DNA from: a virus
Reading direction: 5' to 3' (one strand)
Virus record (IMG/VR): IMGVR_UViG_3300050821_017785
Coordinates: 1 to 39,899 of that record
DNA: 39,899 nt
Below the pieces are notes generated by a model, which searched no databases, was not told where the DNA came from, and was given only the letters and a program-made list of their open reading frames with translations. This document shows positions 5,653 through 8,979 of this stretch, in pieces. The position numbers and the translations under genes are program-made. Each line of letters opens with the position of its first letter. Position 1 is the stretch's first letter.

Positions 5653-7684
5653 TTACATATTTTGTGCTTGCTCTTGGGACCCTTGTTGTGGTCCTAATCC
5701 ACTCAACATTTTAGAGACAAATTCATTAGAAGCAGTTTCGGTGTGCGCCTTTGCTTTTTCTCTGTCTTCATTGAGAGCAGATTTGTAGTCATAGGATTCA
5801 ATTTCAGCAGATTTTAGAGCTGTTTCCACTTCCCCATATTTCGCAATGACATCCATCATTTTCTCTAAAGCTTCCATTTTTGCCTTGGTAGATAGAGAAT
5901 GATTTTTTGAAACCTCCGCCATACGTTCCTCTAAGAGGCCAATGTTACTTTCGAAGCGTCCGTAGCGCTCTTTTGCCATAGCTACTTGGTTCGCAGTCTT
6001 GGCATAAAGTTCTTTCAGTTTGGCTTCTTCGACAATATGCTCTAAGTTCATAGCATGCTGTTGTGCGGCTGCTGATTGTTGTTCTTGTTGTTCAAGTATT
6101 TTAATGATCTCAGATTTACCAGTGATGTTCAGTTTTGGTATGATTTGGCTGGCGCTGAAGACCTCGCGACCAAACATCTGATTCATCTCTAACATTTGAG
6201 ACGCTTGCAAGTTTTGTTGGGTCGGTGTCAAGTCACTTTCTTCTACTAATACATTGTATTTAGCGAAAACCTTAGAGTAGAAATATGGGCTCGGTTCTTC
6301 GTTGATAATCTGTTCAACCTTTTCCGCGCTCCAGTTGTTGAGCACAATCTGAAGCAGTCTGTCTCCCAACGTCTTCAAAGAAACATCCCACTGATCGAAA
6401 TATTTCTGGAATACCATCAAATTTGCAGCTTGTTTGAGTAAAACAGTTAGACTCGAAGTCTGCTTGTCTTGCTGTCCAGACCAATTCTCTAGATTGATGC
6501 CTGATGTTTTGTACATCAAATCTTCCATCTGTTGAGCAAGCGCAAGATCGGATTCTGGAACAGCAGAAGGAATGATCTTTTCACAATCTGTCATCTCATA
6601 GCCATCATTTATGATGACATCCCATCCTTGCCCAGATTTCTTCAGATTGTCTTCGTTAGCTACAGCACCAACTTTACGCTTCCATCCAGCATTAATTGTA
6701 GCGGCGGCAATATCATTGTTCTGTATGACCTTATGATTGAATAGGAATTGAGGTGATCGCATTGTGCGGATAAGACCTCGTACACGAAGATCATAATAGT
6801 TGATATGAGGTTCATAGTTCCATACGACGGGAATGAAAGGACACCCATCAAAACCGAGAGGATTTTCTCCTTCGAACATGAGCTGATCATTGAGTACAAC
6901 AGCAAGTTTCCATGTAGGAACTTCAACTGTAACTTCTTCAAGATCTGGTATTGATTGTACCAGCATGTCGATATTACCATCGCCACCTGCAACATCAAAG
7001 AACTGATTTCTCTTTTGAGAGTAGAGTCTTTTTTTCTTACGTTTCCATTTATACCAGACATACGACAACACCATTAAATCGTTGCGAGCCATGTTATAGT
7101 TTTCAGGAAGGAAATAGAACGAACCATATCTCTGGGGAGTCCCAGACATTGGCATGATGTTCTTGGTTTTATCAGGGAAACGAGCTTCTGCTTCACGCTT
7201 AGAAATGTATTCCTGAGTCCATATGAATTGAGAATCTTCAAATGTCATGGAACGAGCATAAGGATCGCAAAGGAAGCTATTGTATTCCCAGAGCTTTACT
7301 TTGAGTTCGCCTTGAGCTTGGTCTTCGCCAGTGTAATCCAAATATGGTTGTAGCAAAACCATACCAGTAATGGCAGCCTGCTCGCATGCACGAGAGAATT
7401 GCTCATGGATTTGCTGCTTATTAGCTTCCATCGTAATGAGCTTTGTATATTGGTCGGTTGTCTGAGGATCTGATCCTTCAGTCGAGGTGTAATTGAAGTT
7501 TTTACGATGCTGACGTTGATAGCCAGTCACCATGTTTACAGGCTGTTGGCATACGTTGAAATAGTAATTGGAATTGGTCGTGTTGGTGCCCGTATTGAAG
7601 TACCTATTTAAAAAGGACTGCTCGCCGGCATAGAAAAGTGTATCGATATTACTCTGGTTCCATCGCGTTCTGTTACTTTTAAGA
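5653..7684 (-). CDS. Portal protein, exon 2 (P22-like portal)
   Basis: The portal is the dodecameric ring at the capsid vertex through which DNA is packaged and ejected. The protein has the layout of P22-type podovirus portals: an N-terminal segment FYAGEQSFLNRYF followed by NVCQQPVNMVTGYQRQHRKNF, a large mixed core, the long helical region SGINLENWSGQQDKQTSS, and a Gln/Ala-rich helical tail that could form a barrel. The in-frame ATG at 7692 has no ribosome-binding site and lies inside the last intron hairpin. The real start is therefore in exon 1 (7943-8010). Spliced, the gene encodes 699 residues. It lies two HNH genes downstream of the large terminase. Confidence 0.85.
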
Positions 7685-7942
7685 CCTATCATTTTGATAG
7701 GCGGAATAACCTCTTCGGATCATTCTCACCACCTTTATTTATTCGTGGTGTTCAGACTATCGCATCCCTTTCGGGTCTTCTGATTTAGTCGTTCAGGCTG
7801 CTTTCGCTTGCCCCTTGTTGCCCTGTCGGGTGTCCAAGTCAATTACAGAAGATTTATACAGACCCTTGAAAAGCCTGCTCGATAGGCATAAATTTACTAT
7901 ATAAATTATCGCATTACCTATCGAAAGAGTGGCCCGATTTAA
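7685..7942 (-). ncRNA. Group I self-splicing intron in the portal gene (258 nt, no ORF)
   Basis: All core helices can be drawn on the minus strand. P1: exon AGTGGCT (7949-7943) with GGCCACT (7934-7928), ending in the diagnostic U.G pair. P2: TCGATAGG/CCTATCGA. P3: TCTTCTG (7852-7846)/CAGAAGA (7782-7776). P4: CTTG/CAAG. P5: CCC-GACA-GGG. P6: GGC/GCC capped by GC-GAAA-GC. P7: GACTA (7790-7786)/TAGTC (7759-7755). P8: CCC-GAAA-GGG. P9: CACCAC/GTGGTG. P9.1: GAATGA/TTATTC plus CC/GG. P9.2: CCTATCA-aaa-TGATAGG. The intron begins TTAAA, like known phage introns, and ends in G (7685). The helices are seen in sequence; the exact 3' splice site is inferred from frame and the terminal G. P10 is weak. Confidence 0.9.
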
Positions 7943-8010
7943 AGCCACTGTCTTACATTGCCTTGATTTGGCTCAATGTCATTATTCCATGGGGGATAGT
8001 AAAAACTCAA
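7943..8010 (-). CDS. Portal protein, exon 1 (22 codons plus 2 nt, TTG start)
   Basis: A TTG at 8010 follows a strong ribosome-binding site (GGAGG, 5 nt away) just after the upstream HNH gene. It opens a short frame beginning MSFYYPPWNNDIEPNQ and ending in QW plus the first two bases of a Leu codon. Without splicing this frame stops at once in the intron (TAA). Joining CT to the T at 7684 restores the portal frame exactly (QWL-LKSNRTRWNQ). The tiny exon escapes ordinary gene calling. The start is inferred from the ribosome-binding site and frame. Confidence 0.8.
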
Positions 8011-8040: not shown

Positions 8041-8619
8041 CTACTTATCCACCGTATAGCCATACTCCTTTAAAAACTCAATAGCCCAATTAACCTTATC
8101 TTCTAATCGTTGGCCTGGTGGTTGACCACGATGCCAGAGTTCTAGATTTTCAATTCTATTGTCAGTACGTATTCCGTTTTTGTGATGAACTGATTCTGTT
8201 TTTGTTTTTAGAGGACGACCTAAATACTGTGACATAACATAGACATGTTCTCGAATTCGACCCTTTAGATCCATTTGATTGGGATGTCCCTTAACTGTAA
8301 TTGTCTTATATCCCTGATAATCTATGCTCCCTTCCCCATTTTTTCGTTTCTTTATAGGCCCGTAAAGGGGCAATCCTCTCATTTTTCTATAATAAAGTTT
8401 ACCAGGGCTGTGTTCTGGAGGATTTTTTTTACGCCTTTCTTTGGCTTTAGCATTTATCCAAGCACGATGTTTTTCACGATATTCACGTTGATAATCGCTC
8501 AATTTGTCTTTATGTTTTTCGTAATATCTGATTTGAGTGAGTTTGGTACGACAGGAACGACAAAATTCTAATTTAGCTAATGGGGCAAGTTCGGCGCCAC
8601 ATATTGTACAACTCTTCAT
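8041..8619 (-). CDS. HNH endonuclease, free-standing (192 aa)
   Basis: The ATG follows AGGAG at 5 nt. The N-terminus carries a zinc-binding pair of knuckles (CTICGAEL and FCRSCRTKL), followed by a basic helical linker. The C-terminal half holds an HNH_3-type nuclease domain: HVYVMSQYLGRPL, then SVHHKNGIRTDNRIENLELW with the His-His and Asn residues of the metal-binding nuclease fold. Such enzymes are homing endonucleases that spread themselves, and sometimes a neighbouring intron, by cutting intronless alleles. It lies immediately upstream of the intron-bearing portal gene but outside the intron. Whether it drives intron homing is inference. Confidence 0.9.
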   Translation of the reverse strand: MKSCTICGAELAPLAKLEFCRSCRTKLTQIRYYEKHKDKLSDYQREYREKHRAWINAKAKERRKKNPPEHSPGKLYYRKMRGLPLYGPIKKRKNGEGSIDYQGYKTITVKGHPNQMDLKGRIREHVYVMSQYLGRPLKTKTESVHHKNGIRTDNRIENLELWHRGQPPGQRLEDKVNWAIEFLKEYGYTVDK

Positions 8620-8685: not shown

Positions 8686-8979
8686 TCATATCCCCAACAT
8701 CAACTGCTTAGGATCAATCTTCTTCTTCCTCCAGTGGAACTTCATGTGGTCTCTAGGCTTTAGCATCTGCAAATTGCTGATATCATTATTTGATCTATTC
8801 CCATCAATATGATGTACATGCATTCCTTTCGGAATCTCGCCAAAATACATCATCCATACCCATCTGTGAGCATAAATAGCAGCCGACTTTGTTGATTGCC
8901 AATAACCTAAAGCATTGTTTTTATAAAATTTCCTTCCAAAATAGACTTGATGTTCTTTCATATCGGATAACTTTGCCAT
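8686..8979 (-). CDS. Small HNH homing endonuclease (97 aa)
   Basis: A minimal HNH nuclease with the segment AHRWVWMMYFGEIPKGMHVHHIDGNRSNN: His-His-Asp metal-binding core, then ISNLQMLKPRDHMKFH. It lacks the DNA-recognition modules of larger homing enzymes, except for a short N-terminal region (FGRKFYKNNALGYWQ). It lies in the 19-nt-spaced position right after the large terminase stop, so terminase and portal are separated by two mobile nuclease genes. The ribosome-binding site is weak (GGATA), suggesting low expression or coupling to terminase translation. Confidence 0.88.
   Translation of the reverse strand: MAKLSDMKEHQVYFGRKFYKNNALGYWQSTKSAAIYAHRWVWMMYFGEIPKGMHVHHIDGNRSNNDISNLQMLKPRDHMKFHWRKKKIDPKQLMLGI

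Follow-up and report, generated by a model that had tools for sequence, protein, structure and literature searches.

How many introns interrupt the portal gene of this phage, and what would remove them? The window (the whole 39,899-nt stretch, IMG/VR virus record IMGVR_UViG_3300050821_017785) carries on its reverse strand a gene for which the original prediction, made from the letters alone, proposed a 68-nt first exon, a single ORF-less group I intron of 258 nt (7942-7685) and a 699-aa spliced product. Comparison with related genes argues that the gene is split by two introns, one of 31 nt and one of 206 nt, and not by one.

Layout of the portal gene

Searches with blastn and tblastn against annotated phages gave no useful relative. 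A scan of IMG/VR yielded 80 portal loci, almost all of them intronless, and in these the intronless relatives read ..GNVRQWL-DNLYSKFQPIEQS-RWNQSNID... Around the conserved DNLYSKFMPIEQ, the window has gaps of 31 nt and 206 nt where the intronless copies among the 80 are uninterrupted. A purpose-written, intron-tolerant protein-to-DNA alignment gave the window gene three exons, with 31 nt between the first two and 206 nt between the last two. The features of the locus are as follows.

8686-8979, reverse strand: second small gene for an HNH endonuclease (97 aa); lies between the terminase and portal genes
8041-8619, reverse strand: freestanding gene for a 192-aa HNH endonuclease; 30 nt separate it from the portal start downstream
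7943-8010, reverse strand: first portal exon, 68 nt, beginning with the TTG start codon (8010-8008); GGAGG at 8020-8016
7928-7949, reverse strand: P1 of the mini-intron; exon AGTGGCT (7949-7943) with GGCCACT (7934-7928), U.G at the splice site
7912-7942, reverse strand: core-less mini-intron TTAAATCGGGCCACTCTTTCGATAGGTAATG, 31 nt, last base G, from the spliced protein-to-DNA alignment
7938-7935 with 7911-7908, reverse strand: P10 of the mini-intron; IGS AUCG with CGAU at the start of exon 2
7878-7925, reverse strand: tether helix, from a fold and a systematic test; mini-intron tail UUCGAUAGGUA (7925-7915) with mini-exon segment UGCCUAUCGAG (7888-7878)
7872-7911, reverse strand: 40-nt mini-exon; with the adjoining split codon it encodes DNLYSKFMPIEQA; kept in intronless portals
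7666-7871, reverse strand: complete group I intron, 206 nt; P1 GCAGGCU/GGUCUGU, P3-P9 core, P7 GACUA/UAGUC, terminal G
5653-7665, reverse strand: portal exon 3; P22-like portal, PF16510

Much of the original prediction stands. The 68-nt first exon was borne out, with its TTG start and the GGAGG upstream, and the relatives start at the matching place with ATG, GTG or TTG. No reading frame runs through the interrupted region. The ATG called at 7692 does fall within an intron, the 206-nt one, and gene callers would misplace the portal N-terminus, as had been foreseen.

The part that did not survive is the single intron. Removing 7942-7685 leaves an open frame across CT|T, and a set of helices from P1 to P9.2 can be drawn within it. 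The same excision would discard a stretch that the relatives keep: CGATAATTTATATAGTAAATTTATGCCTATCGAGCAGGCT, in frame inside the supposed intron, encodes DNLYSKFMPIEQA, and 40 nt of that supposed intron account for residues (DNLYSKFQPIEQS) found at this place in intronless relatives. Aligned with a relative, the 699-aa product needs 10 gaps and the 706-aa product ligated from the three exons needs 3. Moreover, a 3' splice site at 7685 would sit upstream of the conserved ..AGTAACAGNNNG end shared by the related full introns; the real site appears to lie 19 nt further on, at 7666/7665. We give the 258-nt intron practically no probability. A group I intron near the 5' end of the portal gene was correctly seen, but the proposed unit runs together a core-less mini-intron, a true exon and the greater part of a complete group I intron. 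The P1 formed by the exon end AGTGGCT and closed by U.G is present and belongs to the mini-intron; the P7 GACTA/TAGTC (7790-7786 with 7759-7755) is present and belongs to the 206-nt intron.

The 206-nt intron and its relatives

By comparative sequence, 7871-7666 is a small, ordinary group I intron, one that escapes Rfam. Alignment of 33 related introns gave a structure with P3, P4, P5, P6, P7, P8 and P9 (with P9.2). The core comprises 41 pairs, and 96.6% of the cells were paired across the 33 introns. Its covariation score was 0.503, whereas shuffling gave 0.153 and sliding the partners at most 0.088, and covariation was seen in P3, P5, P6, P7, P8 and P9. P7, for example, occurs as GACUA/UAGUC, GACUG/CAGUC or GACUU/AAGUC. 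A covariance model built from the alignment, to whose training set the window intron belongs, scored 199.7 bits at 7666-7873 and found no other core in the window.

Besides the pseudoknotted P7 and the conserved P3-P9 core, the intron has a terminal G and a P1 whose U.G falls at the 5' splice site, this P1 being of the kind found in its relatives. In the window this P1 contains two G.U pairs beyond the closing one. P10 is 1 bp long in the window and 3-6 bp in many relatives. By eye, some full introns with an initial P10 of 0 pair at an offset of one or two bases, and we therefore do not claim a loss of P10 in the partners of mini-introns.

RF00028 had no match in the window, an outcome that the original prediction had named as its refutation. 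However, Rfam missed nearly all of the related introns as well (one sub-threshold hit, L093), and the missing match therefore reflects the model and not the intron. A match to RF00028 is a search criterion, not a structural one.

The partner introns fall into two classes, one of 200 nt as in the window and one of ~250-870 nt, the latter often with an HNH gene. The longer class is group I-like, is missed by Rfam and also has core-less mini-introns upstream; its carriers (capsid B gene) are L238, L240, L241, L243, L245, L266, L273, L277 and L086.

Core-less mini-introns

The 31-nt intron has a P1 with U.G, a P10 and a terminal G. A catalytic core of its own is absent from its 31 nt, the sole core in the window being that at 7666-7873. 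Without a core it is not a group I intron by a membership test, yet it would work like a group I substrate. Nor is it part of a trans-split group I intron, with a core assembled from separate RNA pieces, since the downstream intron has a complete core and the mini-intron contributes none.

About 35 core-less introns were found in the portal, capsid A and capsid B genes of dozens of related phages, the wider set coming from two capsid-family scans and a portal re-scan. They are 29-93 nt long, mostly 29-67 nt, apart from some enlarged by a LAGLIDADG gene within the P1 loop. The relatives L007, L024 and L079 have the double arrangement of the window at other portal gene sites. Every mini-intron ends in G and has a P1 of 7-8 bp closing with U.G at the splice site (three with one U.U mismatch) and, next to it, a P10 with the following exon, mostly of 4-8 bp.

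For the statistical test, the 5' site was chosen by P1 alone and the 3' site was then set by the reading frame. The last base was G in 27 of the 29 distinct mini-introns (shuffled inserts: mean 6.9, maximum 13) and P10 reached at least 4 bp in 26 (shuffles: mean 0.66, maximum 4). The P1 score was 16.2, compared with 8.0 in shuffles. Compensatory changes in P1 and P10 occur among relatives at the same site (exon GTGTT/IGS AACAC versus exon GTATT/IGS AATAC). The expected residue reappears when split codons are joined; the conserved Trp (T|GG) of L079 and L104, for example, is encoded in no other way. Gaps in L028, L040, L070 and L110, included in the initial list, were dropped because they lacked P1, P10 and a terminal G; they had arisen where the reference protein ran into an intron.

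Probable dependence on the neighbouring intron

Among unselected gene copies, 20 had a mini-intron and a full intron, 20 a full intron only, none a mini-intron only and 199 neither. The Fisher p of 2×10−18 for this co-occurrence is indicative, since the gene copies are related and independence is overstated. Wherever the partner was visible, every mini-intron lay upstream of a full intron, at a distance of 24-117 nt; the contig of L112 ends before any partner position.

Folded together, the mini-intron and mini-exon of the window pair through the tail of the former and the end of the latter. This tether has 11 pairs, including 2 G.U, and stops 6 nt short of the 5' splice site of the full intron. 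Tail pairing of at least 7 bp, with the exon segment flush against the P1 of the partner, was present in 31 of 37 cases; at this threshold shuffled tails gave at most 7 and tails swapped between composites at most 10. The best tail helix anywhere in the exon ended 6-9 nt before the 5' splice site of the partner in 32 of the 37. The tether was short or absent in six (L122, L238, L240, L266, L273 and the second mini-intron of L244), and two-sided changes were found in relatives (AAGCCAUU/AAUGGCUU in L104; AAGCCACU/AGUGGCUU in L290). Seen from the P1 of the mini-intron, the predicted tether occupies the position of P2. We conclude from these comparisons that the mini-intron is docked in cis on the downstream core, which would presumably perform the chemistry.

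More elaborate arrangements also occur. The portal gene of L290 has the order mini, full, mini, full, and the capsid B gene of L244 has two mini-introns ahead of one full intron, the second without a clear tether.

Proposed splicing mechanism and alternatives

Sequence comparison shows the two introns with their boundaries, the exon kept between them, the P1 and P10 helices, the tether and the core. We infer the neighbouring core as catalyst, its action in cis and the order of steps. We consider it very probable that one group I ribozyme (7871-7666) in the portal pre-mRNA serves both introns in cis, with the tether in the role of P2. The 31-nt core-less intron would go first, offering its own P1 and P10; its tail, paired beside the P1 of the ribozyme with the last part of the mini-exon, would form a P2-like tether and so position the mini-intron on the downstream core. 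Cleavage at 7943/7942 would be by exogenous G. The terminal G of the mini-intron (7912) would then occupy the G site, and exon 1 would be ligated to the 40-nt mini-exon. As the mini-intron departs with its strand of the tether, the ribozyme's own P1 could dock, and the ribozyme would excise itself to yield the mRNA for the 706-aa portal.

Since a group I core is able to process a P1 substrate separate from it, any group I ribozyme of the cell might splice the mini-introns in trans. Their strict placement upstream of, and at most 117 nt from, a full intron and their tether to the flank of that partner point to action in cis, and we regard splicing in trans as very unlikely. A regulated exon skipping, which would join the P1 of the mini-intron to the 3' site of the full intron and lose the mini-exon, would be compatible with the P1-P2-core geometry that the tether permits. 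Group I exon skipping is reported for the tandem introns of Twort (Landthaler and Shub 1999; PMC22036) and has been studied in engineered tandem Tetrahymena introns (PMC10136302). Skipping would, however, break the frame, because the mini-exon has 40 nt here and lengths elsewhere that are not restricted to multiples of 3, and P10 is complementary to the start of the mini-exon and not to exon 3, which makes this reading extremely unlikely.

The mini-insert might also be bypassed by the ribosome, in the manner of T4 gene 60, instead of being spliced; a stop codon and a hairpin lie immediately 3' of the exon, and the freestanding HNH gene is adjacent. Yet U precedes and G ends every insert, so that take-off and landing triplets never match, and the split codons (T|GG) require RNA joining. 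Because mini-introns were, in addition, found only beside group I introns, bypassing is hardly credible and was ruled out as an explanation for them.

Relation to known introns

The original prediction considered a portal gene with a tiny first exon an unusual host. In the related phage group, introns in head genes are frequent, and introns in capsid genes are also known from Cluster J mycobacteriophages (PMC3706429). With the phage group I introns of T4 td, Twort, SPO1, Cluster J and Bastillevirinae (PMC11878797), the 206-nt intron shares the U.G in P1, the P3-P9 core, P7 and the terminal G, and like them it interrupts an essential phage gene. Unlike them, it is very small, is missed by RF00028 and would share its ribozyme with a second, core-less intron. 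The Twort and engineered Tetrahymena tandems likewise have two group I-type introns flanking a short exon. In those tandems both introns contain a ribozyme, whereas here the first has none and is tethered to the second.

We found no description of a core-less group I intron in the open-access literature, which does contain capsid-gene group I introns, tandem introns with exon skipping and core-less derivatives of group II introns. There is a strong case, on the comparisons above, that the dependent core-less introns form a class of their own. If the proposed mechanism is right, a single ribozyme cuts two different introns out of one RNA, and an intron can persist at 29 nt without catalytic machinery. 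Core loss combined with a shared catalyst has long been postulated as a step from group II to spliceosomal introns, and the mini-introns would be the group I counterpart of that step. Portal and capsid genes of many uncultured phages would also be misannotated, and a large intron family would be missed by Rfam.

Group III introns of euglenid plastids are short and group II-derived; they have lost the core and kept the splice-site elements. They are likewise core-less and reliant on something else for splicing (reviewed in PMC4424553). In contrast to these introns of group II origin, the mini-introns are of group I type, with the presumptive helper visible next door in cis.

Endonuclease genes and hairpin inserts

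At site 104 of capsid A, L040, L104 (and L123), L109 and L121 share one core-less intron of 953-975 nt. Its P1 loop holds a gene of ~300 aa assigned as double-LAGLIDADG from its two motif copies. Decayed versions of this intron are found in L097 (325 nt) and L111 (93 nt). The LAGLIDADG-bearing intron of L040 is followed by a core that is cut by the contig end. At portal residue 35-36, L007 has a mini-intron and the window has the full intron; hence, either kind can occupy one site.

An HNH gene like that at 8041-8619 lies directly upstream of most portals with a composite intron or a hairpin insert (L024, L306, L330, L357, L047, L317 and L359; exception, L095). The inserts appear as if they were shielding the portal gene from the upstream HNH endonuclease.

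The T4 gene 60 bypass sequence and its homing endonuclease form a mobile cassette. At portal residue 36/37, L047/L311, L054, L064/L288, L317, L353 and L359 carry inserts of 47-54 nt, which are long, near-perfect hairpins with compensatory stem changes and an in-frame stop inside. Most begin at CGG and end before CGN-TGG. The inserts have no P1 or P10, and these portal genes contain no group I intron. The inserts look like a translational bypass element of the T4 gene 60 type (reviewed in PMC5009743), which likewise combines an insert of ~50 nt with a neighbouring freestanding endonuclease gene. T4 gene 60 is closer to the hairpin inserts of L047, L054, L064, L317, L353 and L359 than to the mini-introns, which on present evidence would be spliced.

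Read-through tails of unspliced introns

In-frame read-through into the introns ended with a hydrophobic residue (or Cys/Ala), AA and a stop in 33 of 121 introns, compared with 1 of 242 in the other two frames. We counted only this LAA-like class because the conserved core reads GCAGCCUGA and accounts for some of the plain AA endings. No such tail is present in the introns of the window, which lie at residues 23 and 36. Among the introns at residue 60 or later, 32 of 69 had LAA-like tails, versus 1 of 52 at earlier residues (p=6×10−9). Examples are AQAEQYALAA, SPTYALAA, ANLLAA, ELLAA, EQYALAA, TYALAA and LLAA; carriers include L040, L021, L241, L087, L089, L104, L111, L081 and L105. The tails look like the SsrA-type ClpXP tag and may be degrons that dispose of truncated capsid protein made from unspliced RNA. 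Their codons vary synonymously, and they lie at differing places in the intron, either in the P1 loop or further 3'.
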